Origin: Vanrija pseudolonga
Taxonomy: Eukaryota; Basidiomycota; Tremellomycetes; Trichosporonales; Trichosporonaceae
NCBI RefSeq assembly: GCF_020906515.1
Contig: NC_085854.1
Location: forward strand, 2,418,001-2,482,000
Reading direction: 5' to 3'
Length of the DNA stretch: 64,000 nucleotides
The position numbers were made by a program, and so were the translations under genes. Under the pieces are notes generated by a model. That model saw nothing but the letters and a program-made list of their open reading frames with translations, ran no database searches and was not told the DNA's origin. Of the stretch, positions 1,750 through 46,189 are shown piece by piece (within the stretch, counting starts at the first letter, position 1; each line of letters begins with the position of its first letter).

Positions 1750-2484
1750 GCGAGCAGTTTTGCAGCGCCGCAAGGCGCTGCGAGCTGCATGCTGGACGTC
1801 CACCTCACTGAATGTCCGACCATCCAACCCCGGACCCCGACCCCCGCCCGACCCGATTCCGATTTCCGCATGGCCGAATGTAAAGACACAAGAAACCCAT
1901 AAACTCATATGATCGTACCAAGGCTCGGCTCTGTGACTGTATGCACCGTTCTGCTGTGACTGCTGTGAGGGGGGCGTGAAGGCCGCGGGAGCATCCGTCG
2001 GGATGCCGGAGGCGGGGGGGGCAGGGACGTGGGGGCGGCTTTGTAAGTGTTCGCAATGAGGGAAGGCGTTTGCAAGGTGTGTGTTGCAATGGCCGACGGC
2101 GAGGCAGCCAGGGATGGTTGCGGCGAGAGCACCGCAGTGCGTCAGCGCGCACGCCTTGTATTATCTCGCAGGTTGCGAGTCTGCAACCGGCACATTCGGT
2201 GCGAGATAGGGTCAGTGGCCGGTTGTGTGCTTGGCAAGTGGCGAAATCGCACGCCGATAGCACGAAATTGATTCGGGAGGGTGTGGCGGGCGGGCAGTGG
2301 GTCGGCTTGCCTGGATAGATCCGAGGGTACATCCCGCGAGTGTATGGTGCTGTCTTGCGTTATCGCTCGTTCGCTCGCTCATCGGCGCAGAGGGGAGCGG
2401 TGATGGCCGAGGTGTCGTAGAGGGGTATGTACATAAACGCGAGCTGTGCGCAGCCGACCACCCACAACAGCACGAGCAAGCACC
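1750..2484. other. Intergenic, TIF5 to dioxygenase
   Basis: This 735-bp stretch holds the TIF5 3' flank and the promoter of the next gene. I see no credible coding exon, tRNA or repeat. The open frames here lack splice-supported continuation and typical codon bias. Confidence 0.5.
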
Positions 2485-3860: not shown

Positions 3861-4525
3861 GCTGGCTGGCTGGCTGCGCTTCAAGGCTTGTTCAGTTGTC
3901 ATGTATTGCGTCTTGTGGTACAGTCGAGCGGCATGAGTCGGCACGGCAGCAGCCTCGGAGGACGAATCCGTGTCTTGCGTGGTGCCCAAGTTACTCATAG
4001 CAACAGCTGACACCAAGCCTGCCTGCCTCGACGGGGTGGCGCACCTTGCCAAGCTCGGGACGCAGTCGTCCGCGAGTAAGTAACCTAGCACTTCCGGGGC
4101 CTCGGTATGTGTACCTCGCCTCCTGTCGGTGTCGGCGTCCCAGCTCACACGCTGGGCGATGATAGCGCGTTATTGACCGGTGTTGAGCGGACGACGTCCG
4201 CCCGCGAAATGCCGAGTCGGGCCAATGTGTGTGTTCCTGGTGCGTTTGTGGTTTCCCCACCGATTGTGCCGGATATGCTAGTCGTCTGGCTCCACATGGT
4301 CCACTTGTTCTCTTCCTCAGCTGTGTCTCTGACGGGCTCTTCGGCGCAGAGAGCGGGCAAGCCCCCACCTCACGGATATGCTGCTGCAGGCACGCGCGGG
4401 CCGGGCCGGGCGGATCGGTCACCTGCACGTCCGTCCAGTGCCCCACCCACTGCATCCCGCCACCGTCGTCGGCGTCATGATACAAAACACGCAGCGAGGG
4501 AGCCCCACGTCGCCCCCCACACACC
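3861..4525. other. Intergenic, dioxygenase to MFS transporter
   Basis: A 665-bp stretch with the dioxygenase 3' flank and the transporter promoter. Frames on both strands are short and without splice-supported structure. I see no gene in it. Confidence 0.5.
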
Positions 4526-6500
4526 ATGTCCACTGACCCCTACAACGACATCAAGCCAGACCCGCACGCGGCGGTACGCACCCACCGTGTTGACAATGTA
4601 ATCGACATCGAGAACCCGCTACAGCGCCTCCCAGCGGCACAGGTGGCAGCCGACGCGCGCGCGTTTGCCGAGGCTCACGACCTAGGCGACCACGCGGAAG
4701 ACTTTGTCAAGGGTGCGCTGGTCGCGCGCTCCCCCGACGAGCTGGACACCATCCCGGAGCTCAGCGACGCCGACCGCGCCGCGCTGGCCTTTGAGAAGGA
4801 CCACAAGTGGCGCTGTACGGGCCAGCTGTACTTCGCTGCCCTGATCTGCGCGCTCGGCGCCGCGACGGAGGGCTGGGACATTGTCGGGTCGAACGGCGCC
4901 AACTTGTCTTTTCCGGTCGAGTTTGGGATCGCGCGGCCCCGCCCTGAGCCAGGGGCGAGTCGCGACGAGTGGATTGTAGGGTTGATCAACTCGGCGCCGT
5001 ACCTCGCCGCGGCGATGGTGTAAGTGGCTGCGGTGGGGATTGCATTGCCCCGTGCTAATATGTGCCCAGTGGCGTGTGGGTGTCCGACCCCCTGAACAAC
5101 TGGCTCGGCCGGCGCGGGCTCATCTTCGTCACGGGCCTCGGGCTCATCGCGACGCCGCTCGGCATGGCCTTCACGCGTTCCTGGCAGCAGCTCCTCGCGG
5201 TGCGCCTTCTCATGGGCATTCCGTACGGCGCGAAAGCCGCCACCGTCAGCGTTTATGCCGCCGAGATCTCGCCCACGGCGATCCGCGGCGCGATTACCAT
5301 CGGGTGGCAGCTGTGGGTCACGTTCGGGATCTTCATCGGCATGGCGGCGAACGTCATCGTCAAGGACGTGCCGCGCATCGCGTGGCGGCTACAGCTCGGG
5401 AGCGCGTTCATCCCCTCTGTCCCGCTCGTCTTTTTGGTGTGGCTCGCGCCCGAGAGCCCGCGCTGGCTGATGAAGAAGAACCGGTACCCCGCCGCATTTG
5501 CAGCCTTCTACCGCCTGCGCAAGACGCCGCTCGCCGCCGCGAGGGACATGTACTACTCGCACGTGCTGTACGAGGAGGAGGTCGCGCTCGCAAAGGGCAC
5601 GACGTACTGGTCCCGCCTGACCGACCTCTTCACCGTCCCGCGTATCCGCCGCGCGAGCCTCGGCGCGTTCACGACCATGATCGGGCAGCAGCTGTGCGGG
5701 ATCAACGTGATCAGCTTCTACTCGTCGACCGTGTTCCGCGAGGGAGGGTACACCAACGACCAGGCGCTGTATGCGAGCCTGGGGTTCGGCGCGCTCAACT
5801 TTGCGTTCTGCATCCCTGCGCTGTTCCTGGTCGACACGTTCGGCCGCCGCAGCTTGCTTTTGTCGACGTTCCCGTTCATGACGCTCTTCCTCCTGCTTAC
5901 CGGCCTCGCGTTCCTCCTGCCCGACTCGCAGGCTTCGACGCGCACGTCGCTCGTCGCGGCCTTCATCTACATCTACACCGTGTTCTACTCGGTCGGCGAG
6001 GGACCCATCGCGTTCTTGTACCCTGCCGAGGTGTTCCCCGTGAGTTGAGCGCCAAGGGTATGACGGCTCGCTGACGCCCGCCTGCAGACTGTCCACCGCG
6101 AACAAGGCATGGCGTGGGGCGTGTGGGCGAACAACTTCTTCGCGTCCCTCCTAGGCCTCACCTTCCCCTCGCTCCTGCGCGGCCTGACGCCTGTCGGCGC
6201 GTTCTGCCTCTACGCAGGCCTGAACACGCTCGCGCTCAGCTGGGTGTGGTGCTTTGTGCCCGAGACCAAGGGTCTCACGCTGGAAGAGATCGACCGTGAG
6301 TGCGCCGTCGGAGCCAGAGCTGACGCGCCGCAGAGGTCTTCTCGGTCCCGACGCGCCACTTCATCCACTACGAGACGACGCAGTGGCTTCCCTGGTGGTT
6401 CCGCCGCTACGTCCTCTTCGACCGCAAGGCGCACCTCGTGCCCCTGCTCGACTGGGAGACGGACCGGCAGGCCAAGGCTGCGCGCCGGGTGGCAGCTTAG
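4526..6500 (+). CDS. MFS sugar-porter family transporter
   Basis: A plasma-membrane facilitator of the sugar porter branch. Exons are 4526-5019, 5070-6039, 6088-6295 and 6334-6500, giving 612 residues. Family signatures are present: LGRRGLIF after TM2, PESPRWL at the end of TM6, GRRSLL in the second half and PETKGLTLEEID after TM12. GQQLCGINVISFYSS is the sugar-porter TM7 block. A long cytoplasmic N-terminus of about 110 residues precedes TM1 (CTGQLYFAALICALGAATEG), as in fungal alpha-glucoside and general hexose-type carriers. Introns are 38-50 bp. Substrate is not predictable from these motifs. It follows the dioxygenase on the same strand, so uptake of a related compound is possible but unproven. 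Confidence 0.92.
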
Positions 6501-6726: not shown

Positions 6727-8354
6727 ATGCGCAAGCCATCACCGCACGACCGCGGCCGTAGTGCCAGCACCCCCATCGACCTGAGCGACAACAATGACGA
6801 CGAGGACCCCATCGTCGACCTAACTGGAGACGAGGTGGGCGCAGCACAAGGGCGGCGCTAACAGCAGGCGTCCGGCGAGGAAAGCGATAGTAGCGGCGCG
6901 GAGACGGTGCACCGTCGTCGGGGGAAGGCCTCGCGCCGCCGCCACCGTAGTGGAAGCGAGGAGCGCGCCGAGGTCGTCAAGTCTCGTCACCGGCTCCACC
7001 GCCGCCGCTTGGATGAACCCGCAGAGGTGGTCAAGAGCCGTAAGCGCCGTAGCGAGCCGTCTTCTTCCGAGAGCGAGAGCGACAGTGATGGCGGCGAGGA
7101 AGGAGGCGAGGTGAGTGGTGGCGTTGAGTCTCGCTCACCGCGCCAGTACTACTTCCCCGAACCGCGCAACATACGCTACGGGAGCGAGAGCGGCAGCGGG
7201 TCTGACAGTGTGGGTGCTGACATCACATGCGTGTACCCAATTGACGCGCCAGTCCGACTCGGTCAACTCCGACACCAATAACCGCCGCCCCCAGTCCCGC
7301 CACCGGCACCGTCACCGCGCGCGAACCTCGGAAAGCGAATCCGGCACCCCACCCGACAGCGATGACTCCGAGTCGGACGACGAGTGGGGGCACGATCATG
7401 ACCACAACGATGACCCCGGGCACGAACTCCCCCACAGCTGTCCCAACCCGGAGCAGTATGCAGAGGTCTACGCACGGCTCCGCCGCCCCGCCGTCGCCGC
7501 GCGCTTGGCGGGGTGGATGCGCAACCACCCGCACGGCGGCGCCATCAATATGGACGAGGTTGCGCATCTCGTCTTCCCCCATCCCTGGATCAGGCGGTTC
7601 ATCGGCAGCCGCATGCCGAGGAACATCAGCGGCGTGTACCTCCCTCTGCTGCCGCGCCTGCTCGCCGTCGCCGTGTCCCTGTTCAGGCCCGTCCGCCACC
7701 ACACCACGCGATCCAAGGCATACCGACTGCGCAAGGCGATCGAAATGCTCGCCGACGACCTCCCGCACCACAACCCACCGTGTAACCTGTGCAAGAATAT
7801 GAACATACCCTGTGTCGACCTTGGCGTCTGGGAGCCACGCTGCTGGCTCTGCAAGCTACACGCTAAGCTAGAGAAGACGTGCAGCGTCATCCGCGCGTAC
7901 CGTGGTAACCGCCGCCGTGTCGACGCCGCGGACGAGCTCGAGGCCGAGGTGCGCCAGCACATGGTGGTCGAGGAGGAAGGCCGGCGCCGGCGCACGGCGG
8001 CGAACGCGCTGGTGGAAGAGCTCGGTTCGCTGCTTGACAACCCTCACGATGATGAGGAGAAGCGCGACGTGTTGGCCCGGTTGAGCCAGCATGCGTTGGT
8101 CGAAGAAACCGTGCAGGAGCGCCGGTGGGAGGCGGACCAGCTGCTACGCAGGGTGAGGCGGTTCCTGCGCGCCCAGTCGAAGAGTATGTGCTGTGCCGGT
8201 GGGTGTGGGTAGCTGACGGGTAGTGAATGGTAACGGACCCGGCCAGAACAGAAACAGGTTCAAGAGACAGCGAATCGTGACGAGCGACGAGGAGGAGGAC
8301 AGCGAGGTCATGCTGGACGGTGACGAGAGCGAGGGTGACGACGACGACGAGTGA
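6727..8354 (+). CDS. Array paralogue A: SIM-like, Zn-cluster protein
   Basis: First member of the tandem family. Exons are 6727-6834, 6865-7110, 7147-7209, 7253-8183 and 8224-8354, giving 492 residues. The first exon encodes two SUMO-interaction-like cores, PIDLSDNNDDED and PIVDLTGDE, and ends in GAC GAG before the intron, as in its relatives. A basic/serine-rich linker with RRR clusters follows. The family core is GWMRNHPHGGAINMDEV then LVFPHPWIRRF. The internal cysteine cluster at residues 316-349 reads C-x2-C-x6-C-x9-C-x2-C-x9-C. Two helical repeats of the family type follow (RQHMVVEEEGRRRRTAA and SQHALVEETVQERRWEA). The tail FKRQRIVTSDEEEDSE is basic then strongly acidic. No catalytic motif is visible. 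A nuclear, DNA- or chromatin-associated role is inference from the cluster and basic/acidic segments. Confidence 0.8.
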
Positions 8355-8461
8355 TGGGCTGAGGTCAAGCAACAAGAACAACGCACCAACAGTGTGAATA
8401 GATCAATAGAACGGTCGAGCTGGTCGTCTGCTCGCCATTGTGTAAGCTGCAAGTGCCATGA

Positions 8462-8650
8462 ATGCCATACAGCAATGCCGCCGAGGTGGCCATTGCCGCA
8501 GTGATGTCCGCCCTCGTCCTCACCGAGCTCACCGTTTACGGCTGCCTAAGACTCAGCCAGCACAAAGTCCGCCAAACACCGGCGCGCGCTCCAGTCAGTC
8601 AGGATGCGCAGACGACAGAGGCAGAGGTCGAGGCATACGAGCAGGAGTAA
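8462..8650 (+). CDS. Possible small membrane protein, 62 aa
   Basis: An intronless frame between paralogues A and B whose codons mostly end in C or G like the real genes here. It would encode a short protein with one hydrophobic segment (AIAAVMSALVLTELTVYG) and a polar, acidic tail. Its TAA stop lies inside the shared upstream element of paralogue B, so it may equally be chance openness in a promoter region. I recognise no family. Confidence 0.3.
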   Translation: MPYSNAAEVAIAAVMSALVLTELTVYGCLRLSQHKVRQTPARAPVSQDAQTTEAEVEAYEQE

Positions 8651-8663
8651 AGGCGTAAGGCGG
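8644..8663 (+). promoter_or_regulatory. Shared upstream element of array gene B
   Basis: The sequence GGAGTAAAGGCGTAAGGCGG lies 119 bp before the ATG of B. It resembles the [20 protein letters not shown] element found at similar distances before D, E, F and G. Function is inferred from conservation of position only. Confidence 0.5.
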
Positions 8664-8781
8664 GTTGACGGCGGTGTGTGTGTGTGCGGCGCACTTATCA
8701 TCCTTCTTCTGCCCTCAACTCGACTCTCATCCTTTCTTTGCCCACTATCATACCCAATACTTTCACCTACCCATACATACA

Positions 8782-10869
8782 ATGAGCAGTCGAAGGAACC
8801 AGCCCACAGGCAGCAGGAGCGAGAGCCCGATCGATCCGACTGAGGAGGTGGGTGGATGTGGCAGGGTTATTGGCTGACAGTTTCAGGTTTCTGCGCCGCG
8901 CGACTTCGACGCGGAGGCGTACTGGCCACGAGACGACGAGAGCGATGACGACAGCAACCATCACGGAGACGAGGGCATGGACGGCTACGGTGACGAGGAC
9001 GAACAGGAGGCAGCCGCCAACGACGAAGTCGACGAAGAGCACAGGCCCAGTGGCACGTACTTGAGCTTGTCGCCCACCGAGCTCGCCACCGACGACGAAG
9101 GTGCCAACGCCGACGTCCACCCCGAAGAGTCGGACGAGTCAGACCCCGACTCCGACGACGAGTCCGAGTCTGATTCGTGGAGCCGGAGCAGCTCCAACGT
9201 GGGTGGAGATTACCTGGCCATGCTCACACCCCAGCACCGCGCAGCCGCTCGCCCGTCAACGTCCCGGACCAACCCCAAGCACACGCCAAGGGCCCACCGA
9301 GACTCCGACGACGAACCGGACAGCGGTGCTGACGCCGCGGTCGACACGTACGACAACGGTGTATCGTCACACGCTGCGACCTCCACCGCTGGACGGAAGC
9401 GCAAGCGTGACGCACCCTCCAGTGAGGACGAGTCGGAGCACCAGGCCAGCCACGAAGACAACTTCGCCTCCTGGCCGAAAGGCCGAGAGAGGGAAGAGAT
9501 CCACGCCGACCTGAACGACGCCCAAGCCACCCTCGAGTGGTGGGACTCCCTCGCCGAGCACCCGGGCGACCTGGACCCGCGTGGGATCAAGCTCCTCGTT
9601 CTCCCCCACCCGCTCCTTCGGGGCCTGTTGGAGAGCGACTGGCCCGTCGGACCGATCGACGAGGCGTACCGCGAGCAGGTGGGACACATCCGCGACGCAG
9701 CAATTTGGCTGTTCAAGAAGCTCCAGTTCAGCACCTTCCGCGGCAAGGTCATCTACCTGCGCCGCGCACTGCGCCTCATCACCACCCCTCCGGCGCCCCA
9801 CATGCCCCGGTGCGCTCCGTGTGCGCGGCAGAACCAGTCGTGTGTCGAGGGGGTGGAGGGACGCTGCCAGTACTGCAACCTCTTCCCCACCAAGATTTGC
9901 GACCCCGCGAAGGCGCAGCGCGAGAGGAAGCGGAAGAGGGAGGAGTACGAGCGACGCAAGGCGGTCGACGTCCGGGGTGGCAAAGACAAGGGCAAGCAGA
10001 CCTCCGACGGGAGCCGCGGGAAAGACAAGGCTCCGAAGAGTACACCACTCCGCCGCTCTCGCCGTCCCTCCAGGAGGCAGGAGACCGAATACAATACCCC
10101 CACGGGGGACGCTGGGGACGATGAGTTCGAACCCCTCGAGTCCTCGCGACCTGGCCCGGGACCTGGCGTCAACCGCAACGACACCGCAGGTCGGAGCAGG
10201 ACGACGGCGCGCTCCTCTCCGCCTCCTGGGACTGCTGTTGGCACCCCGGGGCCGAGTACCCAACGTGGCGGCTCATCAGCAGACTCAGACACCCCGGCAC
10301 CCACGTCAAGCACCCCAACTCCAGGCCGCCAGCCCCTCACCCTCCCGCGCGTCCTCGAGCTCCTGCGCGCTCACGTCGACGAGGACGGCGACACCCGGCG
10401 CCAGTTCCAGGGCGGGGTCATTCTCGACGAGCTTGAGAGTGACCTCGAGGTCATCAGCTCGTCAGTGGATGTGTCGCATCTCTCCCGGCACCTCTTGGGC
10501 AACGAAAAGGACGCGGCGCGCAAAAACTGGGCCGAGTTCCTCCTCAAGCGCCTCGAGGTGGCCGTGTCACGGCGCGTGTTCGGCCTGGGTGCCTCTACAG
10601 GTGAGCGGGAGGAAGGTCTTGCCTGCGCTGACTGGGCAGGTGATGAGATAAATGCTTCGGCGTCAGGCTCGGCATCACCACTGGTAGACCGTCCCGATGC
10701 GTCGCGCTCCTCCGGGGCGCCGGAGGGCACGGACAGGAAGGGCAAGAGGCGCCAGGTCGACGACGGGTCATCAACTGCAGCAGGTACGCAGGTCAGTGGG
10801 GAGGCCTCGCCGGCGGGGAAGAAGGAGAGCAGCTGGGGATTCTTTGGCATGGGACTGTTTAGGAAGTGA
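8782..10869 (+). CDS. Array paralogue B: Zn-cluster acidic protein
   Basis: Second array member, 669 residues, exons 8782-8847, 8887-10600 and 10640-10869. The first exon ends with a degenerate form of the N-terminal motif (SPIDPTEE). A long Asp/Glu/Ser-rich region follows, then the family core: FASWPKGREREEI, LVLPHPLLRGLLESDWPVGPID and IRDAAIWLFKKLQF. The cysteine cluster at residues 331-360 is C-x2-C-x6-C-x7-C-x2-C-x7-C, within classical Zn2Cys6 spacing. A Lys/Arg-rich segment follows it. The C-terminal half holds paired helical repeats (RAHVDEDGDTRRQF and LGNEKDAARKNWAEFLLKRLE) and the TDRKGKRRQVDD basic motif shared with C, D and E. The last intron (39 bp) is a multiple of three with no stop, so retention would add 13 residues in frame. 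Function unknown. Confidence 0.82.
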
Positions 10870-11335
10870 TTGTGTGGTGTGTGCATGGACAATATACGCT
10901 TGTGGCGGTGATGTGGCGCAGGTTGCGGCCGGAAAAATGGATGTGCCACAAGGTGTGCCACACAAAACAAATCAGGAAAAATACGTGCTCCGCATCACAG
11001 ATCACAGGCGAGCACCAAAAGGTTGCCAACCTCCCAGGTTCGACTCTGCTACTGATTCGAACCCAGTACCCCGGGTTTTGTGCTGTAGCCGCTCTGCGTC
11101 GGAACGTCTTACGGGTTCGACCACAGCGCCCGAGGATGTCGAGCATTGTGTCTACTACCTTTCAGCCCGCCCCGTGTCCTTGCCCGACATCAGCCCAAGT
11201 ACAACCAATACCAGTTGCTCGCACAACTAGCGTTATCGTCACAGCTGCGTCCAACGGCAGTCCGCGCGACACACACAAGCGCTCTGTAATCCAACAACAC
11301 ACGTCTCCTCTTCTCTCCATACCACCATACTCAAA
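10870..11335. other. Intergenic, B to C
   Basis: A 466-bp stretch. A weak relative of the shared upstream element (GGAAAAATGGATGTGCC, 10931-10947) lies here, 389 bp before the ATG of C and so further away than in the other genes. Three RNA polymerase III B-box-like strings (11040-11120) do not fold into tRNA T arms. The ATG context of C (TACTCAAAATGCG) closely matches that of A. Confidence 0.45.
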
Positions 11336-13149
11336 ATGCGCTACAACACCCGTCTGGCCCACCGAAAAGAGCTTGCGAGCATCCCCATTGACTTGACGGA
11401 CCCTGACGACGAGGTGAGTTGCCTGCGCGGGTGGTGTGTCCGGTAGCTCACACTACTCGCAGAGCGTCCAAAGCGAGCGTGGTAGCGAGACGAGCCGTCG
11501 TGCCATGAGTCCGCTTGTCAAGAACGAGGCCGATGACGTGGCGGGGCATGACGCTCCACACGGCACCAGTTACAGTGAGGAGGACCACGACGGTGCGGGT
11601 GACCGTCACCCCGGTAGCAGTGACCCACACACATCCCACACCGCCGACAACGACACCAAGCCCACCCCGACCACCAGCCGCACACTCCCACACGCCTCCA
11701 ACGACGTCCACTACCCGACACTCGCAGAGGAGCTCCAGGACTGGGCGCAGGGTGCCGAGCGCGAGGCCATCCTAACCCAACTCGAGAGCCGCGCGTCCAA
11801 GCAAGCGTGGGAGGACTGGCTCGCCGCCAACCCAGAGGGAGAAGTCCACCCGGACCACATTCGCGACTTTATGCTCCCCGACCTGGATCTGCAGCGCGTC
11901 TTCGGGAGGCACTTCCCTACCACACCAATCCACTCCGACTGGTACCACCTTCTGGGCACCATCCGAGCGAGCGCCATTGGGCTCTTCAAGCCCTACAGGA
12001 CAGACGAGACATTCCAGGAGAGCGCGCGGAACCTCGCACATGCGCTTGAAGGGCTCGCTGTGCCGCCGACCCTCCGACAGCTCGCGTGCGAGCCGTGCAC
12101 TGCCGACAGTAGCATTTGCCTCGTGAGCGCCATGTCGGGGAATGAGAAGGGGCCGTGCATGAAGTGCCTCCTGCTCGGTACGGGTAACTGCAAGGGTGAG
12201 GAGGCTGCCGAGTACGCGGCAGTGCAGCGCGAGAGGACGAAGGGGCAGCGTTCCTATAGCGCGGGAAGCTTCAGCCGCGCGAGCGCGACCAGCTCCACAA
12301 ACACACCTGCGCTCCCATTCCCCAACCCCGAGAACAGGAAGAACGCAGAGGAAAGTCCTGGAGCTGCACCACGCCGGAAGAAGGCCGCGATCATCATCCG
12401 GCCTGGTCTTTGGATCGCGAAGCCCAAGACCAACAAGGTGCCCCCCAAGTCCAGCGAGCCCAAGTCCAAGCCCATCAGCGCGGCGCCCACGTCCGTCCCG
12501 AGGAGTTCGGAGGTCCCCAGGAGCTCCGAGGGCAGGTCACCGGCGCCAGGCACTCCGACGTACCAGTGGATCCTGGACCACCTCCGGCGCCACTTGGACA
12601 AGGACGACTCGGATGACCGCAGGGAACATGGCGCCTTCATCTTCACCCGTCTCCAGAGGGCGCTCGCGGACGGGGACGACACCAGCGACACCCTTGGCGA
12701 GCTGCGCCGGCACATGACCTCGCCGACAGATGAGCTCGACGAGAACCGTCGCCAGAGGGCGCAGTTCGTCATCAATTCATTGGAGGATGAGATTTGGAAG
12801 GACAGGGCCAGTGAGTTGATTGCGGCGTGGGGCGGGGATTTGTCGCTGACGGTACTCAGAGCGCGAGATGCCTCCGCCATCCTCGCCTCAGGGTTCAAGG
12901 TCATACTCAGCCACGCAGTTCACGAGCCCAGCCCCGTCTATCGACAGGAAGGGCAAGAGGCGCGCCGTAGACACCGAGTGGGAGGAGGACGCCCCGAGTC
13001 ATGGCGCGGTCGGCGGTGGCGATGAAGATGACGATGATGATCAGTGGGAGGACCCGCGCCTGTTTGACCTCTTGGACGTTGACCACGGCGGTGCTGGCCC
13101 GTCTGGGGAGAGTGGGGGCAATGCATACAAGAGGTGGCGCGGGGGTTGA
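11336..13149 (+). CDS. Array paralogue C: SIM-like, Zn-cluster protein
   Basis: Third array member, 571 residues, exons 11336-11413, 11463-12810 and 12860-13149. The first exon ends in SIPIDLTDPDDE, a SUMO-interaction-like core with acidic flank. The next exon has SPLVKNEADD, which contains a psi-K-x-E SUMO-acceptor-like site. The core reads LQDWAQGAEREAILTQL, WLAANPEGEVHPDHIRDFMLPD and FGRHFPTTPIHSDW. The cysteine cluster at residues 235-269 is C-x2-C-x6-C-x12-C-x2-C-x7-C. Two C-terminal repeats follow (RRHLDKDDSDDRREHGAFIF and RRHMTSPTDELDENRRQRAQ). The last exon carries the PSIDRKGKRRAVD basic motif, an acidic stretch and a LFDLLDVDHGGAGPSGES tail related to D, E and F. Function unknown. 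Confidence 0.83.
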
Positions 13150-13331
13150 GCTTTGTGAGCACAGGCCGTTCCCGAGAAGTTGTCGATACCAGTGGGTGCA
13201 TCCATATCTATGGACGATCGGCGTAGCTATCTTTTGTCCTTGTATTAGCGAGCGACGACTGCTCTATTGTGCTTGGATATGCAAGCTTTTTGTCTGGAAA
13301 TGTGAGATGGCTGCCTTTGTGGCGCCACAAC

Positions 13332-13352
13332 GGGAGCAAAACTGGAGGTGGC
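13332..13352 (+). promoter_or_regulatory. Shared upstream element of array gene D
   Basis: GGGAGCAAAACTGGAGGTGG begins here, 105 bp before the ATG of D. It aligns with GGGAGTAAAAGGAAGGTGGC before F. Confidence 0.5.
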
Positions 13353-13456
13353 GGTCCGAGCGCACGGGGGTGACCCGCGACGATCACGAAGCAACAACAA
13401 CAACAATACAGACACGCACACTTTCTCTCTTGCGTCACATTTCACAACAGCTCACA

Positions 13457-15394
13457 ATGCGACACTTAAGGCCAACACGCCGCCCCCCAGGTAGCGCACA
13501 CAACCCAATCGACTTCACCGAGGACGACGACGACTACCACGACGATGCCGACATTCCCGAGGCCAACGGGGTGAGTGTGTCTGTTGCTACCTAGTTGATT
13601 GCACCAGCTGACAGTGTTCGGAAGATTGCACCAGCTGACAGTGTTCGGAAGACGTTAGCTGCAAAGGAAGAGCCACAATCAGAGTGGGGAGGCGACGCCG
13701 ACAATGGTGACGTGCCGAACGCCGACACTGTGAGTTTGCTCAGTGTGGTTAACGGCGCGGGCTCATCAGCGCGCGGTAGACACCCACCATCAAGGCAGAA
13801 CCCCACTCGGAACGCGAGGACGCCGACACCCCCTCTGAATTCACCGACCTCGAGAGCGGAGACGAGAACGGGTCATACGTTGGTAGTGATGACGACGTAG
13901 GCGGCGACACCAGCGACAGCGAAAGCGCGGAAGACCAACGTGACCTGGATTGTGACCTCGACATCGAAGGAAGCGACCATGACGTCAACGACGGCGAAGG
14001 CAACGAAGACAGGCAGCCCCTATCCGTTCTTTACAAGACATGGCCTCGCGTTGCCGCTCTTCTTGGCATAAGGAAGGCCCTGGATACCCGAGCAAGCACA
14101 CGATCCTGGGACGATTGGCTTCGGAACAACCCTCCATTCGGTGACGTGGATCCGAACGGGCTCCGCGACCGCTTACTTCCACATGCGGCCCTCCGCGGTA
14201 TCGTCGGATGTCACTTCCCTACGACACCCATTCGTGCAGAGTACTACTCCCACCTAACCTCCATCCGAGCTTTTGCCATCGACATGTTTAAGGAACGACG
14301 CTATGTCACCTTCAAGGAGCGTATCGCTCGCCTTGTCAGTGTGCTGAAGAGTCTCACTGTGGAACCGGAGCCTCGCGAGCCACAATGCGAACCCTGCCGG
14401 AGCCGCGCTTTGCCTTGCATGGAGATCACAGCAGATGGACGCTGCTTCAACTGCCGGCTCCACCGTATTAAAGCATGCTTGCCACAGAGCGCCCCTGCCC
14501 AGCCCACTCGACGGACGGAACACCCCCGGCGGCACACGGGGAAGAAGGGCACTGAACCCAACGACCGCAAACGACGCGCTCGAGCCGCATTGTACGGCAG
14601 TACTCCGCACACAGTCGAAAACCACCAAGGTGTCGAACCTGATAACAGGGGCCATCGCAGGCGGCACCAAGCTTCCAGCCCAATAATCAACCGTCGCGTC
14701 AACGAGGTCCGCGACAGCCCAGACCAAACAGAGACCACCCCCAACAATGACGACTCCGGTTTCCAGCGTCCCACCGATGCTCCTCAACCCCCACCAAGTC
14801 TTGCCAAGGGCAACAACAACCCACTCAGTCTTCAGGGCATCCTCTTAAATCTTCGCAATCACTTGGAGGAGGATACCCCCCATCGACGCAAGGCGTACGG
14901 CGAGCTCGTTTTCTCCGCATTGGAGCTAGCGATCGATGAGGACGGCGACTATGCGGACGCCCTTGAAGAGATTAGTCAGCATACCACCAATCCCAAGGAT
15001 GAGCCCGACGAGACGCGCCGGCGAAAAGCCAAGTTCATTCTCGGCTTGCTGGAGCGTGAGCTCGCCAAGAGCGCTGCAAGTAAGTAGCGGTATTCTTCTT
15101 AGCCAGCTGCTGATCATAGCAGGGCCGTCAGCCTCAAGCATTGCGTCTCCTGAACGGCCGCCACTGTCAGCCCAATCTCAGCCACGGTCGACCGACAGGA
15201 AGGGCAAGCGGCGTGCTACAGATACTCTGAGCGACACCTGGAACGACGTTGCAATTCATTTCCAGGACGAGGACGACCGTCTTGACCACAACGGCTTTCA
15301 GGATCACCGGATGTACGACCTGCGTGATGTCGACCCCAACGGTGCCGGTTCGTCACGAGCGGCTTCGGGCGCCCGCAAGAAGAGGCGCGTCTAA
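13457..15394 (+). CDS. Array paralogue D: SIM-like, Zn-cluster protein
   Basis: Fourth array member, 588 residues, exons 13457-13570, 13652-13729, 13780-15079 and 15120-15394. The first exon encodes NPIDFTEDDDDYHDD, a variant of the IDLT core. Exon 3 opens with TPTIKAEPHS, containing a psi-K-x-E SUMO-acceptor-like site. The core is LYKTWPRVAALLGIRKAL, WLRNNPPFGDVDPNGLRD, LLPHAALRGIVGCHFPTTPI. The cysteine cluster at residues 267-297 is C-x2-C-x6-C-x8-C-x2-C-x7-C and has basic residues in its first loop (CRSRALPC). Two C-terminal repeats follow (NHLEEDTPHRRKAYGELVF and ETRRRKAKFILGLLERELA). The tail has STDRKGKRRATDT and MYDLRDVDPNGAGSSR. Intron 1 contains a duplicated 3' splice region (separate entry). 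Function unknown. Confidence 0.82.
13598..13651 (+). repeat. 27-bp perfect tandem duplication at a 3' splice site
   Basis: Two identical 27-bp copies (13598-13624 and 13625-13651) each contain a CTGAC branch-like site and end in CGGAAG. The second ends at the acceptor that keeps gene D in frame. Using the first would add exactly nine codons (IAPADSVRK). Confidence 0.9.
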
Positions 15395-15672
15395 GAGACA
15401 ACACTGGTGTGCAGAGGAGAGGCGACGGGTGACGTGTGAACCTCTTTCAGACGATATGTAGCTTGCCCGTTGGTATGTATGAAGACATGTGCATACCTCT
15501 ACTGTATGACCCAGCGACGTTGTCGTGTCTGACCTCACCGACATTTGGCGACTGTGCTGGCGTTGTCGAGCTGGCGGTGCTCCTCCTCAGTGTGCATTAC
15601 AAGTGCCAGTCTCTACAACGGATCCGCACACATGCTGCACCTCAGTCCGTGTGCACCACACACACAAGCGAC

Positions 15673-15692
15673 GGGACTAAAAGGAAGATGGC
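15673..15692 (+). promoter_or_regulatory. Shared upstream element of array gene E
   Basis: GGGACTAAAAGGAAGATGGC, 118 bp before the ATG of E, matches the element before F at 18 of 20 positions. Confidence 0.55.
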
Positions 15693-15809
15693 ATGGTGTG
15701 AGGGGCGCGCAGTGTCGCGAGGAGCGCGTGTGTGTGCGTACGTCACACTCGGCAACAACACTCAACACCACCACATTCCCTTCTTCCCTCTTCACAATCA
15801 CAACTCGAC

Positions 15810-17647
15810 ATGCGCTCGTACAGGCCAATCCCACAACAGACGGGGACGAGCCGTCGTCAGGCCATCGACCTCACCGGAGACGACAGCGACGACGACGATG
15901 CAGGCCCGACACGCTCTACAGCCCCCACTCGTAGCAACTTTGGTGAGGTACGCCCTGTGGCCCGAGGAGGAAGGACACCGCTGACGCCGTGACTGTAGGT
16001 CAAGGTCAAGATGGAGCCTGGGTACGCGCAGCCACCTCTGAGGGGTCCGGGGGAGAGCAACGGCGGTGGTCGCGACCACAGCTACCACCAAAACGAAGGA
16101 CACGACAGTACCAGCGACAACGACCACGACGACTACAGCGATATCGAGGTCTTGGACGGTTCTGATGGCGAATACCAAGACCCCCAAGGCCCACAGTTGC
16201 TCAAGGATCTATTCACCAAGTGGCCCAAGGGGGATGCCAAACGCGCCATTCTCCACGAACTGCAGAGTCCCGAATCCGAGCGTCTCTGGAGCACCTGGCT
16301 CGACAAGTACCCGCCAGGCAATATTGACCCGGCCGACGTTCGTGATTTCCTTCTTCCCCACCCAGCACTTCACGCCGTCTTCGGGTACCAGTATCCAAAA
16401 GCCCCTATCAACGACGCCTACCGACCTCACCTCACCTCCATTCGAAAAGCTGCCATTGGGCTGTTCAAGCAGATTAAACCCGAAACCTGGCGACATGGCG
16501 TTGGGCGTGTGACTCGAGCTCTGCACGCGCTCTCTCAGACTCCTACCCGCCGTCTTCAGCCCTGTTCAGCCTGTCACAAGCGAGGCACCCCCTGCATTGG
16601 AGAGGACGACCAGAGTCAACCCTGCTTCACGTGTCGCCTTCACAACACTTATTCTGGGTGCACCACCAACGCATCCGCGAGCAGTAGTCGCCCAAAGCCA
16701 CGCGAGCGCTACCTGTATGGCAGTGCAAGGCTCCATCCAATGATTAAACCGAGGCTCTCAAGGCCAAACGACAGCCAAGAGAAGGAGGACACAAACAGCG
16801 GTGACGCGGCCATTCCTGGGCTCCCCGGAACGGCGACCGGGTGCCACTTCGAGCCCCGCGAGAGGCCATCGACGCGCAACACCGTCAACGACGATCCAGG
16901 CTCAACGCGTGACACCATCAACGACCAGCCTCACTCGACGCCGGCCACCATCAACGACAAGCTTGGCTCGACGAGTAACACGCTCAATATGGATGGCCTT
17001 GATCAATTTTCCGCGGCCGAATCCAACACAGTCATGCGCGAGGGGGACGACGACGAGGACTCGAAAGCCCACGTTGCCATTGTTCGCGACAGGCAGTTGG
17101 CCCTCGAGATGCTCGCCACCCACCTCAGACACGATCCTGACGAGGAGCGCAAGGAATACAGCAAGTTCGTCTTCGGTCGCTTGGAGAGGACAATCGACAG
17201 TGGCGACGATCTCGATCCCGTCCTCCTCGAGCTTCACTACCACGCGACCGAGGACGAGCCGGACGAGAAGCGCCGCCGCAAGGCGCTGTTCATTCTGATG
17301 CAGTTGGAGCAGGGGGTGACCAAGGTCATCAGTGGTGAGCTTGTCGTCCAAATTCCACTCGTTGCTGACATCAAGCACAAGGAGAGAAGGACCGTTCCGC
17401 TCACGAGGCCATGCGTACCACAACCTCCTCGATCGACCGTAAGGGCAAGAGGCGCGCGACGGAGACCGAGACCGAACCTGAGGGCTGGGACAACTATATG
17501 AGCCACTTCACCAGCGTCGACGACGAGCTTGACGCCGATGGGTTCCAGGACCACAGGCGGTACAACCTCCGTGACACAGATGCCCGTGGTGCGGGATCGT
17601 CGCGAGCTTCGGGGAGTGCACCCAAGAGGAGCCGCGGTGGCGCGTAA
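15810..17647 (+). CDS. Array paralogue E: SIM-like, Zn-cluster protein
   Basis: Fifth array member, 579 residues, exons 15810-15947, 15999-17334 and 17382-17647. Exon 1 encodes QAIDLTGDDSDDDD, the clearest SUMO-interaction-like core of the array. Exon 2 opens with VKVKMEPGY, a psi-K-x-E acceptor-like site, and a second acidic hydrophobic core DIEVLDGSDGE precedes the family domain. That domain reads LFTKWPKGDAKRAIL, WLDKYPPGNIDPADVRDFLL and FGYQYPKAPINDAY. The cysteine cluster at residues 235-267 is C-x2-C-x6-C-x9-C-x2-C-x8-C. An 11-residue tandem repeat lies between the cluster and the C-terminal repeats (THLRHDPDEERKEYSKFVF and DEKRRRKALFILMQLEQ). The tail has SSIDRKGKRRATE and RYNLRDTDARGAGSSR. 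Function unknown. Confidence 0.84.
16876..16989 (+). repeat. 33-bp coding tandem repeat in paralogue E
   Basis: Three full units and a partial fourth encode an 11-residue motif of the form x-x-T-[IV]-N-D-x-x-x-S-T. The units are diverged at the DNA level, so it is an older expansion, and it is absent from the sister genes. Confidence 0.85.
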
Positions 17648-17783
17648 GCAGGAGGACAATAGGTGCAAGACAGGGGGCCTGCAGCAGCTTGATAAACTTC
17701 CTTGTAGCGAGTGAGAGATGAACAAAGACTGTGCATCAGAGCTTCAAACTTGTGGCGGAGAAAATGGCTGTGTGGCACTCGAC

Positions 17784-17803
17784 GGGAGTAAAAGGAAGGT
17801 GGC
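17784..17803 (+). promoter_or_regulatory. Shared upstream element of array gene F
   Basis: GGGAGTAAAAGGAAGGTGGC, 142 bp before the ATG of F. This is the best representative of the element and is nearly identical to the copy before G. Confidence 0.6.
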
Positions 17804-17944
17804 GCTCGGTGCGTCGCAATGTTTACTGATGTGCGCTGGTCAGAGTGACGCCCCCGTCGTCGATCAACTTTCACCCCCCTGTCTTCTCTGTTTCTCATTG
17901 TCTCGTTTTCTCTTTATCATTCACCATTATCTTCTTCACCAACA

Positions 17945-18134
17945 ATGCCGTCGACCAGGGCGAGCATCCGGCGTGCAGCCCTCGCAGCCGCAACCGAGGA
18001 CGATGCCGACGCCGCTGCCAACATGGCCAACATGGCCAACATGGACAAGGTGGGTCTGGTGCTTCAGGTGCAGGCTGACGAGGAAGGCGGATCATGATGA
18101 CGGTGACGCACGGTCGCAGTTGAGTCAACCAAGA

Positions 18135-18179
<45 letters not shown>

Positions 18180-19404
18180 CTCTTGAACGTCGGTGACGGG
18201 GACTGGCAACAGCCCGACGACGACACACTTTCTCTCCGAGACCGCTTCAAGGCGTGGCCAAAGGGCGACGCGGCAGTTGCCATTCTCGAGGACCTGCAAA
18301 GCCCCGAGTCCGAGTTCACCTGGAGCACCTGGCTTGACAAGTACCCGCAAGGCGCCATCGACCCCTCCGACATACGCGACTTCCTTCTCCCACATCCGGC
18401 GTTACACGGTATCGTTGGCACCTTCTTCCCAACAACTCCAATCGACGCCGGTTACCGGCCTTTCCTCAACGCCATTCGAAAGAGAGCCATCGTTACCTTC
18501 AAGGAGACGACAGTTGGCACTTGGGCGGGGCGCATATGGACCCTGGCTCGTGCCCTTTCCATCCTCTCTCAAACCCCAACCTACCGCGAGCCGCCATGCG
18601 CCGTCTGCAAGATGCGGAAGGTCAGTTGTATCGCCAACGAAGAGCAGCAGCGGTGCCTACACTGCCACCTCCACCACGGCAAGCTGAAAAGCTGCCTTGG
18701 GGTTGATGAATTAGGCACCCGCAGGAGGCCTGTCTGCCTCTCCTACGGCCGACGCGCGAGCAGACACCACCAGTCGAACATGGGAGCGGGAGCTTCCAGA
18801 GAGAACCAGAACGCTGCGTCGCGCGCCACAGAGTCGCGCATCACAGAGTCGCCCAACCGGCGCGAGAGTCTCCTTAAACTCCTTCACACCCACATGGGAG
18901 TTGAAGGTGACAACAAGCAACACGAATATTCTGAGTTTGTGTTTACGTGCTTGGCAGATGCCGGCAACGACCATCATCAAGAAGCTGTTGCCGAGCTCCG
19001 AAGGCACATGGCATCGTCCAAGGAGAGTGCCGAAGAAAACCGCCGCGCAAAAACGGATTTCATCCTGCGCCAGTTGGAGCGCGAACTGGCGAAGCGAGCC
19101 GAGGGTAAGGGGTGAGGATGAGGAGAGATCGTTAACACGCGCAGAGCCGACGACAAGCACTCTTCATCCACCCGAGCCCACCGTCCCCACCACGGACAAG
19201 ACGTCGGCCAAGGGCAAGGGCAAGAGGAGGGCAATCAGCCCAGTGAACAGAGACGAGGAGGACGAGCTTGAAGGTGACAACCTCATGGACCAGGACGGCT
19301 GGCAAGACCATCGCAGGTACCACCTCCGCGATGTCGACCGCAATGGTGCTGGGCCGTCTCGGCGTCGTGGGGAGGACAGTGCCGCCAAGAAGCGTCGTGC
19401 GTGA
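17945..19404 (+). CDS. Array paralogue F: Zn-cluster protein with poly-Asp tract
   Basis: Sixth array member, 449 residues, exons 17945-18049, 18120-19104 and 19145-19404. The first exon lacks the IDLT core and instead ends in a short NMANMANMDK repeat. A run of twelve Asp (12 GAC codons) leads into IELLNVGDG, an acidic-flanked hydrophobic core that could serve as a SUMO-interaction motif. The family domain is RFKAWPKGDAAVAILEDL, WLDKYPQGAIDPSDIRDFLL and VGTFFPTTPIDAGY. The cysteine cluster at residues 195-227 is C-x2-C-x6-C-x8-C-x2-C-x9-C with KMRKVS in its first loop, closest to a true fungal Zn2Cys6 loop. Two C-terminal repeats follow. The tail has KGKGKRRAISP and RYHLRDVDRNGAGPSR. Function unknown. 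Confidence 0.84.
18138..18173 (+). repeat. (GAC)12 trinucleotide run in paralogue F
   Basis: Twelve uninterrupted GAC codons encode an Asp tract beside IELL. A perfect run of this kind is expected to vary in length between strains. Confidence 0.95.
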
Positions 19405-19527
19405 GCCTGACAGCCGCGTGACGCTGCAAAGCATCACTAAGAGAAGTGCATTTTTAGGCAGCCTTGTAGAGATCAGTAAAGGGAAAGACGAGGTGCATGT
19501 AGATGATTGTGTTCTCCGTGTTGTGAT

Positions 19528-19547
19528 GGGAGTAAAAGGAAGGTGCC
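19528..19547 (+). promoter_or_regulatory. Shared upstream element of array gene G
   Basis: GGGAGTAAAAGGAAGGTGCC, 101 bp before the ATG of G, matches the copy before F at 19 of 20 positions. Confidence 0.6.
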
Positions 19548-19647
19548 ATTTGGGCCATTGTTGACAAGTGCATCATTGGGTCGCCGAGGGATCCTCTTCA
19601 ACCCATTCACACTTGTTTATCACTCTGCACCTAGCCAGCCTTAAAAA

Positions 19648-20888
19648 ATGTCGACGACGCGTAGATCAGCGAGTAGCAGCTCAGCGACCGCCCTTGCTCG
19701 CGACCCAGACGACGTGAGTCACATGTGCATACCTCTGATTGACACTGACGCGACCCAGTGGCCAGTCAAGGAGGAGCCGCTCGCCCTTCGCTCAGTCAGC
19801 CCCCTGTCAGCCCCACCAAGCGACAACGATCACGATCAGTCTGATGGAGGGCATAGACCCAGCCGTCGCCTGAGAGGTCTGTCGCCCGAGTTCGCCGCGG
19901 AGAGCGACGACGAGGCGATCGTAAGGGTAAGTCAACCCCCTACCGCCTTCCCTGGCTGACTCCAGCTGCAGACCCCTGCCACTTCAGTCCCCACCTTCGA
20001 GCCCATGGAAGTCGTGTACACCGACTGGCCTCGCGGTGCCGCCCGGGCCGCGATCTACGCGCAGCTGAGCAGCGCGTACGCCGAGCAGCAGTGGGCCGCG
20101 TGGCTCGCAAGCAGCAAGGACCCGCTCGAGCCGGCACAGCCGCACCACAAACTCCTTCCGCACTCCGCGCTACGCCGACTGGTGGAGTGGTGCTTCACCG
20201 CGCCAATACACCCCGGGCACCGTGACCAGGTGGGCCAGATCCGCGCGCTCGCCGTCTCGCTCGTCCGCAAGATCAGCGCCTCGACATGGAAGGTCAAGGT
20301 GTACGCCCTGCGTGCGGGGGTCAGCTCGCTGCGTGCCCCGCCTGTGGCGCGCGAGACGCCGTGCTACAGCTGCGCCGAACTCGGTGTCGCCTGCGTCGTG
20401 TGTAGTGGGCACAAGCGGTGCCTGTCTTGCGTGCGTGCTGTTGAACCTGCCGTACTGCGGCGAGCGGGACCCGAGGGCCATTGGGGCCGAGGTGGCGGGT
20501 AAGCGGAAGCGGCGTTGGGCGGGCGGCGAAGACAACGACGACGGCAAGACGAAGTCGAGAGACGAGCCGAGCGAACACCACGACAACGACAAAAGCGAGT
20601 GGATGGTCGACGCGTTCCGCAGGCACATGGTCGACAAGAAGCGTGACCCCGAGCGCCAGACCGAGCCGAAGTGGCTCCTGCACTGGCTGGAAAATCGGAG
20701 CGGTATCGTTGATCGCCCTCCGACGGCCTGGCGGAGTGGTGCGTGCGGCTTGTTTACTTGTGCTTTTGCTAACGCGTGCAGTGAGAGCCAACGGCGGCTC
20801 ACAGGCGATGTTGGGAGCGGCAGGCGACGAGAATGCGGGCGACGAGGACGTGGGCCATGACGGCTTTGCGTTCTTGTGGGACGAGTAG
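19648..20888 (+). CDS. Array paralogue G: shortened, possibly decaying family member
   Basis: Seventh array member. Proposed exons are 19648-19713, 19759-19926, 19972-20430, 20492-20738 and 20782-20888, giving 348 residues. No IDLT core is present, but exon 2 opens with WPVKEEPLA, a psi-K-x-E acceptor-like site. The family domain is shortened (YTDWPRGAARAAIYAQL, LLPHSALRRLVEWCFTAPI). The cysteine cluster begins at residue 209 as C-x2-C-x6-C-x8-C-x2-C. The sixth Cys is not in frame. It would follow as VLLNLPYC but for a GTGC duplication at 20431-20438, which shifts the frame. The downstream sequence stays open in the shifted frame, so either an intron at 20431-20491 (GTGCGT donor, CCGAG acceptor, no clear branch site) removes this piece or the gene is recently broken. 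One C-terminal repeat remains (FRRHMVDKKRDPERQTE). Confidence 0.6.
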
Positions 20889-21234
20889 ACGCCCGATGCT
20901 TGAGTCGTCCAAGGTGACGGAGACGAGAGGTGGTGCGGGTCGTAATTACGCAGAGTGCGCGACGAGCTAATGAAGTGAGGAGTTGCAGTACCCCGCCGTG
21001 TTTGTTAATAGGATACCATGCAGTACACAAGTCCCCATGGTGCACAGGTTGCGCACTCGAGTTCACTCGCTCTCGGCGCGAGGTGAGTTGGCAATAAAGG
21101 ACGTGGGTGAGCGCGAAGACACGGCGGCGCGAGTGAGGCGTGTTGTGTGCGCGCCGCCATCCCGCCAGCTGGCTTCTTGACTCAACCCTTACACCTTCAC
21201 TCTCCCCTCTTCACTCGTCTCCAACTTCACAGAA

Positions 21235-23368
21235 ATGTCTCACAACACTCACATATTCAAGCAAGCACGCCCTGACCAGCACCAACTTGGTGAAGTGAGT
21301 ATCCCCTCTGCAGAGCCCACACAGATCCGCGAGCAAGCTCACGCAAAGACCTCGACGCCCACCGCGCCCCACTCGTCGCGCTTCACCAACACGGACGATC
21401 GTGCCGTTGCACACTCTGCCCCTCGCAACTCGCTGCCCAACATGACAATCGGGAACCAGCCTCTCGGCAGCTCCTCGAACAGCACCCCCCAGAACCGCCC
21501 GCGCGTCGCTCAACCTCCTCTGCACCGCGCCACCCAGCCCAGGCAGTCGGCGAGCGGTGCCGTCACCCACCGCCGCCCCGAGCCGCCGGCGGGTACTGCC
21601 GAGCCCATGCCCCTCCGCGACATGGTCGCCCAGGCGCGCACGCGTGCCACCCCGCAGCTCAACGGCCCGGCCAGGTTCGCCCCCAAGCCCGCTGGCAGCA
21701 GCTCGCAGCCCACGCGGCGTGTCACTGCCAGTGCCGCCGCCAGAGTCGCCACCAGCAGCCTCCACACGCCGGCCAGCGTCCACCCCACTGACGCCGGCAC
21801 CCACCCCAAGCCCCCCAAGACCCACCACACGCCACTCGCCGTCTTCAAGTTCAAGGGCTCGTCCGTGACCTTTGTCGCGTCCAAGACCCAGCCTGGCACC
21901 CCCGTCGCCAGTGGCTCCGGTGCGCACACGGGCGAGTCTCCCACTCGCGCCGGTGCGAGGGCCCAACGTGCCGCCGGGTCGTCCAACTCCAGCGTGCCTG
22001 CCCCGCACAACACTCCCGCGCACGACGACAGCGAGGCCGAGAGCGGCGTCGACGACAACGAGCATACCGTCGCGAAAGGCAAGCGCAAGACCACGCCGGG
22101 ATACCTCAACATGGCCAACCGCATCAACAACGGCCGCCCGAGGAACGTCGCCGAGCTCTTCGCGGAGTACTCGAAGCCCGAGAGCAGCCGCGAGCTCGAG
22201 GACTGGGTCGCGAACTACCCGTTTGGCCCGTTCGACTGCGAGAAGGCGCTTGCGCTCGTCTTCCCCCACCCGTACCTCCAGGCCATAGTGGAGGACAAGT
22301 TCCCCGTGACGCCCATCCACCGCGGGTGGGGCCCGCACCTGCCTCGCCTGCGCGAGGTCGGCCTCCTCCTCCTCAAGAGCAGCAGCGAGTCCACGCTCGT
22401 CGCGTCGGCTCGCCGGCTCCGCACCGCCGTGACTCACCTGGCGGACCGGCCCGTCGCCTGCAAGGTTGCTTGCGCGCCATGCGTGCGCCACAAGATCCCG
22501 TGCAACGAGGTCGTCGGCCGTGTCGCGTGCTTCGACTGCGCGACGCGTGGCGGCAATAGGTCGGCTTCGTGCGGGAACCACAAGGCGGGCAAGACCGCGG
22601 CCACTGCCATCCACGTCGGCGACGAAGACGACATTGAGGGGGGTGATGCCCGTGAGGCTGATGCCGCGTCTGGTACGCTCGAGGCTGCCGAGGTCGCTGC
22701 GCCCATGGTCACCGCGCCGGTGGTCGCCAAACCCAAAGTCGCGGCGCCGAAGGCCACTGCCGCGAAGGTCGCCACGCCCAAGGTTCCTGCTCCCATTGTC
22801 GCGCGCCCGCCGGCCATAGCACCGACTGTCGCCACTGCCCCGACTGTCGCCACGCCGGTTATCGTCGCCCCGGCAGTTGCCACGCCAATCGACAAGGACG
22901 ACGACGACACCATCAACATGCTCACCACGGCCCGCTGGCACATTGTCACCGAGGAGAAGGACGAGAGTCGCAAGGAACTCGCCGACTTCGTGTTCCGATG
23001 GATCCTCGAGAATAAGGGCGCGCAGGTCACAGTCGAGGGTGGGTACTGAGCTCGCGAGTGAGTGCTGACGACGACGCCCAGAGCTCGACGGCATGATCGA
23101 GGACCAGAGTCGCCCCCGCCGTCGCCCCGGCCGCCCTCCCCAGCCCAGGTTCTCGGCTGTCACCGACCTCCAGAGGGGCGTGCAGAAGAGGTCGGACGCG
23201 TACTACCAGAAGCAGAAGGACGAGGTTGCCGCGTGCCGCAAGACGCGCTCGCAGACGGCGCTGGCCCTCGGCACCGTGCCCAAGATCGAGGACGTCGAGG
23301 CCGACAGCGACGACGACCGTCCTGGGCCCAGCACCCGCTCGGCGAAGAAGAAGGCCCGTCTCAGCTGA
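21235..23368 (+). CDS. Array paralogue H: Zn-cluster protein with AT-hook-like motif
   Basis: Eighth array member, up to 696 residues. Exons are 21235-21294, then coding to 23038, then 23082-23368. The first exon ends HQLGE before a GTGAGT, the conserved family position, but the acceptor is uncertain: candidate introns of 30 and 54 bp are both multiples of three and readable through. No IDLT core is present. A Pro/Ser/Thr-rich region precedes the domain: ELFAEYSKPESSRELEDW, LVFPHPYLQAIVEDKFPVTPI. The cysteine cluster, about residue 413, is C-x2-C-x6-C-x8-C-x2-C-x10-C. An Ala/Val/Pro-rich stretch with repeated APTVAT-type units leads to one C-terminal repeat (WHIVTEEKDESRKELADFVF). The last exon has RPRRRPGRPPQPR, which resembles an AT-hook, and a basic end. 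It is the array member most like dispersed paralogue I. Confidence 0.8.
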
Positions 23369-46182: not shown

Positions 46183-46189
46183 TTTAACC

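Follow-up and report, generated by a model that had tools for sequence, protein, structure and literature searches.

A 64,000-nucleotide stretch of the genome of the basidiomycete yeast Vanrija pseudolonga (24.9 Mb, nine contigs), positions 2418001-2482000 of contig C6 and hereafter the window, carries nine paralogous genes that we call A to I. Our tentative proposal is that they encode lineage-restricted nuclear SUMO-client proteins whose zinc-cluster core would bind DNA or a chromatin partner. Each protein would consist of a long N-terminus, acidic in most copies, a conserved helical domain with a Zn2Cys6-like cluster attached to it, and C-terminal helical pairs. Eight of the genes form a tandem array, A to H, at window positions 6727-23368 (C6:2424727-2441368), and the same genome holds, on contig C2, an array of SUMO-like genes.

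A helical core, a six-cysteine cluster and their divergence

An earlier note on this DNA had described a core without a named domain and a cluster of six cysteines, likewise left unnamed. For the helical half of the core, the description is borne out. A confident in silico model of the F core (predicted local distance difference test, pLDDT, 89.6) is helical. Since no Pfam family exceeded its cut-off in any of the nine exon-2 proteins, and comparison of the model with the PDB matched no solved structure below an E value of 2.6, the helical half did not map to a well-known domain in these comparisons. The C-terminal repeats, described earlier as HM/HL-type, are present as H[ML] repeats that are predicted to be helical at a modest pLDDT of ~50-70.

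The cluster, on the other hand, does have a known counterpart: the spacing CX2CX6CX(n)CX2CX(6-9)C is that of the fungal Zn2Cys6 (GAL4-type) cluster. The pattern CX2CX6CX5-12CX2CX6-9C is found in A-F and H and, by alignment, in the metagenomic relatives P0002 and P0003 described below; I deviates, with CX2CX8C in the first half, and the middle loop of C is longer than the usual Zn2Cys6 range. An alignment of ten sequences, without G, shows all six cysteines unchanged. The sixth is in frame in eight of the nine genes and lies in another frame in G, in keeping with the earlier count of five in-frame cysteines for that copy. Profile comparisons point the same way as the spacing, weakly: sub-threshold matches to Pfam Zn_clus fall on the cluster in three of the nine proteins (E, F and H, which score 10.2-11.4 bits where the cut-off is 21), the top PDB profile match, at a non-significant E value of 1.3, was to the Zn2Cys6 subunit of CBF3 and covered the cluster, and hhalign comparison with 18 canonical clusters from this genome gave P values of 4.6e-4 and 2.7e-4 with probabilities of 33 and 41%. 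Judged by spacing and profile, the cluster is Zn2Cys6-like, and we do not file it as a member of PF00172; we infer that it would bind zinc and DNA. Like the fungal Zn(II)2Cys6 cluster (PF00172; GAL4, CBF3 subunit B), A-I have the six-cysteine spacing and a weak profile similarity on it, but they score below the Pfam cut-off, have often lost the basic loop, and show no fungal transcription-factor middle domain (none by Pfam up to an E value of 1 in the nine exon-2 proteins). In addition, their cluster sits mid-protein, after the helical domain, instead of near the N-terminus. The nuclear look noted earlier is supported by acidic stretches and by KGKRR-type basic motifs in B-F (DRKGKRR common to B-E, KGKGKRR in F), and the proteins are presumably nuclear. 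D-F also have in common a C-terminal QDHR..Y.LRD block.

Repeated duplication with strong divergence, as proposed for the array, is well supported. The cores align over ~160 residues at 23-52% identity to E, and exon 2 of E, used as a genome query, matched the other seven and I at E values of 2.1e-58 to 3.2e-7, far beyond chance. Whole-genome six-frame searches with A, C, E, H and I (B, D, F and G were not among the queries) returned, at E values below 0.01, these nine genes only; H additionally matched three unrelated-looking places at E values of 0.016 to 0.5. Across the ~160 columns of the nine cores, one proline, one isoleucine and five cysteines are invariant. Of the two core motifs earlier described as shared, FPHP occurs in two of the eight array genes (A and H) and in I, the others having LPHP (B, E and F), LPDL (C), LPHA (D) or LPHS (G); FP-x-x-PI is variable and A lacks it. 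In a tree of ten core sequences, H and I form a well-supported pair (98/94), which A joins at 88/83; the tree leaves five of its seven inner branches unresolved and brings long branches together.

The description of the family as fast-evolving is supported only indirectly, silent sites being near saturation. We calculated the ratio of nonsynonymous to synonymous substitution rates (dN/dS) for all 36 core pairs and rejected it as evidence. Since silent sites are near saturation (proportion of synonymous differences, pS, 0.47-0.77; two pairs without a dS) and GC content at third codon positions (GC3) is unequal among copies, the ratios are not interpretable, and the values near or above 1 for A-B and some pairs with I are not to be trusted. 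The GC3 of neighbouring cores ranges from 0.60 in D and 0.63 in E up to 0.91 in H, hinting at different ages or conversion histories. A 20-base element with near-identical copies begins 137, 161 and 120 bases ahead of the ATG of E, F and G, respectively. Searched across the whole genome, its pattern matches exactly at these three copies only, and at one other place with two mismatches; the element may act in regulation or may be left over from duplication.

Protein searches returned few relatives. The first profile search, of proteins 0.55-1.75 times the core length, gave one match, a fragment of E. The second, among 8000 scored candidates, gave this fragment and P0002, a metagenomic protein without a name that shares 49% identity with E. 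The third, which used words from the H core alone and allowed E values up to 10, gave P0003 as its sole match, a metagenomic protein 79% identical over the H core. The distance between P0002 and E exceeds that between P0003 and H, and the two may come from different species. The family has one named public protein, LOC62_06G008754 of V. pseudolonga. No other named fungus was represented, and the E fragment was the only match among annotated V. pseudolonga proteins, in searches that require shared exact five-residue words, that distant relatives can escape and that depend on annotation that may be poor. Since the searches gave no protein of another named fungus, the narrow list of hits fits a lineage-restricted family, as earlier suggested. 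Overall, the earlier interpretation stands in part: duplication, divergence, the nuclear look and the narrow hit list hold, and the namelessness of the six-cysteine cluster does not.

SUMO-type motifs and an array of SUMO-like genes

The N-terminus is acidic in most copies, and in several of them the region ahead of the core contains SUMO-type motifs that the earlier note did not mention. In the nine pre-core regions (1533 amino acids), patterns for SUMO-interacting motifs (SIMs) gave eight matches at seven distinct sites in five of nine proteins (A, C, D, F and I), as compared to 0.17 in shuffled sequences. No SIM pattern matched in B, whose exon 1 reads PIDPT, in E, which has AIDLT only, or in G or H. 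The SUMO-acceptor consensus psiKxE occurs four times in the same regions, as compared to 0.73 in shuffles (P 0.005); the sites, in C, D, E and G, lie right at the beginning of exon 2 or close to it. A background of 33 open reading frames picked by GC3 (8249 amino acids) contains three SIM and six psiKxE matches. VKME and DIEVLD of E correspond to VKVE and DIEVFD in P0002, the record of which is without exon 1. We infer that the N-termini would dock SUMO, be modified by it or both. SIM-bearing SUMO clients such as RNF4 and PML are well known. Like these, A-I carry [PILVM][ILVM]D[LF][TS] beside acidic residues, together with psiKxE sites. Unlike them, A-I are putative clients in which Pfam detects neither a RING or TRIM nor any other E3 domain, and the motifs are not in every copy.

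A genome domain search meant to check the SUMO pathway brought up a row of partial SUMO-like matches on C2. Ten units were modelled by translation and splice-aware alignment, and a hidden Markov model of the penultimate exon, run over C2:3046000-3081000, found these ten and six more, three of them weak (16-23 bits). The array thus comprises 16 SUMO-like units at about 3057374-3072950 (~15.6 kb), one on the minus strand. A terminal GG is readable in 13 of 16, in 11 of the 15 plus-strand units by a script that admits any acceptor giving GG and in two by eye; S5 and S6 lack it, as does the unit at 3061395. The stop follows directly after GG in 11 of the 13, whereas S3 and S4 extend five and four residues beyond it. 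Canonical SUMO is encoded by one gene, on contig C7 (Rad60-SLD score 84.9 bits), and fungi usually have one SUMO gene. The introns of the C7 gene lie after ...LK, after ...[LI]R and inside the codon before [VLI]GG, and these positions are kept in most of the ten modelled units; S4, S5 and S6 deviate in part. When five of the 16 units were tested against Pfam, three passed the Rad60-SLD cut-off and four the ubiquitin cut-off. S9 matched SUMO-1, SUMO-2 and SMT3 chains to their last residue, the top rows of the list being polyubiquitin, for which scores are summed over repeats. The ten units are 25-34% identical to canonical SUMO. Among themselves, they average 58.5% identity in the C-terminal half and 33.5% in the half containing strand 2 and helix 1, which aligns less surely; it is at strand 2 and helix 1 of SUMO that SIMs bind.

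Tandem duplication of diverged SUMO genes has a parallel in the SUMO gene families of angiosperms (PMC6680281). Compared with these, the C2 array differs in being from a yeast, in packing 16 units into ~15.6 kb, in that 11 of its 13 GG units stop right after GG, and in sharing its genome with an expanded family of candidate clients. Among the literature matches listed, subscription papers aside, there was no report on the C6 array, the C2 array or a SUMO expansion in Trichosporonales, and PMC12820176 contains neither "SUMO" nor "tandem" (zero occurrences each).

Gene models and surroundings

Modelling of open reading frames and GT-AG introns confirmed an eight-gene tandem array on the plus strand with matching exon layouts (Table 1); I, the ninth member, lies on the minus strand outside the region first described. 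The short first exon ascribed to all copies is clear in seven of the eight; in H the open frame runs on with no clear first intron. P0003, like H, ends by the same read-through into the intron. An antisense frame of 663 amino acids opposite H, one of the long antisense frames present, was rejected as coding, since P0003 keeps the plus-strand protein. The first intron of D is 209 bases long and its model is uncertain at that point, and alternatives exist for the last acceptor of E. In G, the frame breaks after the fifth cysteine (window 20430-20760), with the sixth cysteine and a family-like C-terminal repeat and tail in another frame; a mutation, an uncommon kind of intron or a fault in the assembly might account for the break. 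A tblastn search of the window for decayed copies gave nothing significant outside A-I. Upstream of I, at 45198-45242 on the minus strand, a stretch resembles the G tail very weakly (E value 2.5), perhaps a relic but unproven.

Since C6 ends in (TTAGGGGG)n repeats, the array is ~167 kb from the telomere; these repeats, noted at the contig end within C6:2607120-2608619, constitute a telomere with an unusual unit. The genes on either side of the array are ordinary ones: upstream (window 643-6045) lie those for eIF5, a sugar transporter and a dioxygenase of the TauD type, and downstream, on the minus strand at 23859-25466, is NPL4. A pair of adjoining tRNA genes (Rfam) lies on the minus strand at 46100-46276.

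Table 1. Genes and sequence features of the A-I family, in window coordinates
Feature	Position	Strand	Details	Basis
Gene A	6727-8354	+	exons 6727-6834, 6868-7110, 7147-7209, 7253-8183, 8224-8354; core 7442-7903	open reading frames, GT-AG introns, core alignment
Gene B	8782-10869	+	exons 8782-8847, 8887-10600, 10640-10869; core 9454-9921	open reading frames, GT-AG introns, core alignment
Gene C	11336-13149	+	exons 11336-11413, 11463-12810, 12860-13149; core 11721-12212	open reading frames, GT-AG introns, core alignment
Gene D	13457-15394	+	exons 13457-13570, 13780-15079, 15123-15394; core 14020-14499	open reading frames, GT-AG introns, core alignment
Gene E	15810-17647	+	exons 15810-15947, 15999-17334, 17385-17647; core 16197-16682	open reading frames, introns, core alignment
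Gene F	17945-19404	+	exons 17945-18049, 18120-19104, 19145-19404; core 18234-18716 (the folded sequence)	open reading frames, introns, core alignment
Gene G	19648-20502, then frame break	+	exons 19648-19713, 19759-19926, 19972-20502	open reading frames, introns
Gene H	21235-23368	+	exons 21235-23038, 23082-23368; core 22147-22590	open reading frames, introns, core alignment
Gene I	42085-44431	-	exons 44431-44390, 44348-42545, 42509-42085; core 43448-42981	
Zn2Cys6-like cluster of E	16563-16661	+		pattern scan, alignment, hhalign
Equivalent clusters	start near 7781, 9811, 12087, 14386, 18597, 22471	+	five Cys in frame in G	
Equivalent cluster	starts near 43106	-		
Two SIM matches, exon 1 of A	6772-6825	+	PIDLS, IVDLT	pattern scan
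SIM match, exon 1 of C	11384-11398	+	PIDLT	pattern scan
SIM match, exon 1 of D	13505-13519	+	PIDFT	widened pattern
SIM-like, exon 1 of E	15861-15875	+	AIDLT, not counted by SIM patterns	
SIM match, acidic region of F	18165-18185	+	DDDIELL	pattern scan
Two SIM sites, acidic region of I	43611-43706	-	LIELDSE; EESVVVVEDE (matched by two patterns)	pattern scan
SUMO-acceptor consensus in C	11517-11528	+	VKNE	pattern scan
SUMO-acceptor consensus in D	13789-13800	+	IKAE	pattern scan
SUMO-acceptor consensus in E	16005-16016	+	VKME (VKVE in P0002)	pattern scan
SUMO-acceptor consensus in G	19765-19776	+	VKEE	pattern scan
20-base element before E	15673-15692	+		
20-base element before F	17784-17803	+	near-identical copy	
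20-base element before G	19528-19547	+	near-identical copy	

Candidate explanations and their meaning

If A-I are nuclear SUMO clients, which we consider quite possible though short of probable, the zinc-cluster core would bind DNA or a chromatin partner, the N-terminus would dock SUMO, become SUMOylated or both, and the proteins would be assembled or switched via the SUMO pathway; tandem duplication would then have diversified the copies. Several observations weigh against this proposal. The SIM and psiKxE patterns were picked after motifs had been seen, one of them (SIM-b) was widened to admit F/V and S, and the motif statistics treat kin paralogues, which are not independent. By these patterns, B and H have neither a SIM nor an acceptor site, and only C and D have both. 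As for the cluster, none of the nine proteins reaches the PF00172 cut-off (best 11.4 of 21 bits), the 145 Zn_clus matches in the genome (E values up to 1) include none of the nine genes, and a basic loop with at least two K/R between the second and third cysteines is seen, by eye, in five of nine (D, E, F, H and I), as compared to 18 of 18 canonical clusters. Among other genes of the pathway, the two kinds covered by searches, those for Ulp proteases (two loci over the cut-off) and SP-RING proteins (one locus), are not expanded. Finally, a promoter element common to both arrays was rejected, since the element upstream of E, F and G has no match at five or fewer mismatches in C2:3046000-3081000, and two at six.

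How else might the family be explained? One possibility, which we find doubtful yet worth keeping in view, is that A-I are diverged Zn2Cys6-type transcription regulators with targets of their own and no special link to SUMO, the motifs being ancestral or ordinary acidic activation-like sequence. The cysteine spacing, the weak Zn_clus similarity and the acidic N-termini speak for this reading, and many transcription regulators are SUMOylated. However, the Zn_clus cut-off is reached in none of the nine, Pfam finds no fungal transcription-factor domain, A, B, C and G have few basic residues in the loop, and the density of SIMs is well above that of shuffles and background reading frames.

It is also conceivable, although unlikely, that the family serves conflict or self-recognition, directed against transposons, viruses or non-self nuclei and diversified in an arms race, with SUMO as one possible wire. 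The tandem, diverged copies, their narrow distribution in searches, their position 167 kb from the telomere and the second diversified array in the genome would suit this role; near-saturated silent sites leave positive selection without a usable signal, however, and Pfam finds no known recognition domain. That the genes are relics in decay with little function left seems least probable, indeed very improbable. The frame break in G, the loss of motifs from some copies and the very weak match near 45.2 kb would be consistent with decay, but open frames and consistent introns are maintained in eight of nine genes, five cysteines are invariant in all nine, and metagenomic relatives preserve both E and H.

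Returning to the SUMO-client proposal, the C6 and C2 arrays may be tied, and their presence suggests, as a hint, an expansion of both sides of one tagging system in the same genome. Since the same genome holds the SUMO-like array, diversified SUMO-SIM pairing is possible. In its strongest form, a long shot in our view, about sixteen SUMO paralogues on one chromosome, conserved in their C-terminal half and diversified in the half with the SIM groove, would be read by the diversified tandem zinc-cluster family bearing SIMs and SUMO sites on another, as a lineage-specific system of recognition or silencing built from the SUMO pathway.

A-I combine a helical domain, for which no solved structure gave a match in this analysis, with a degenerate Zn2Cys6-like cluster and SUMO-type motifs. 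Even if the two arrays are unlinked, the SUMO-like array on C2 is unusual and easy to test. If they are linked, one could test directly in this yeast whether private signalling pairs can arise when SUMO paralogues diversify together with the motifs that bind them.

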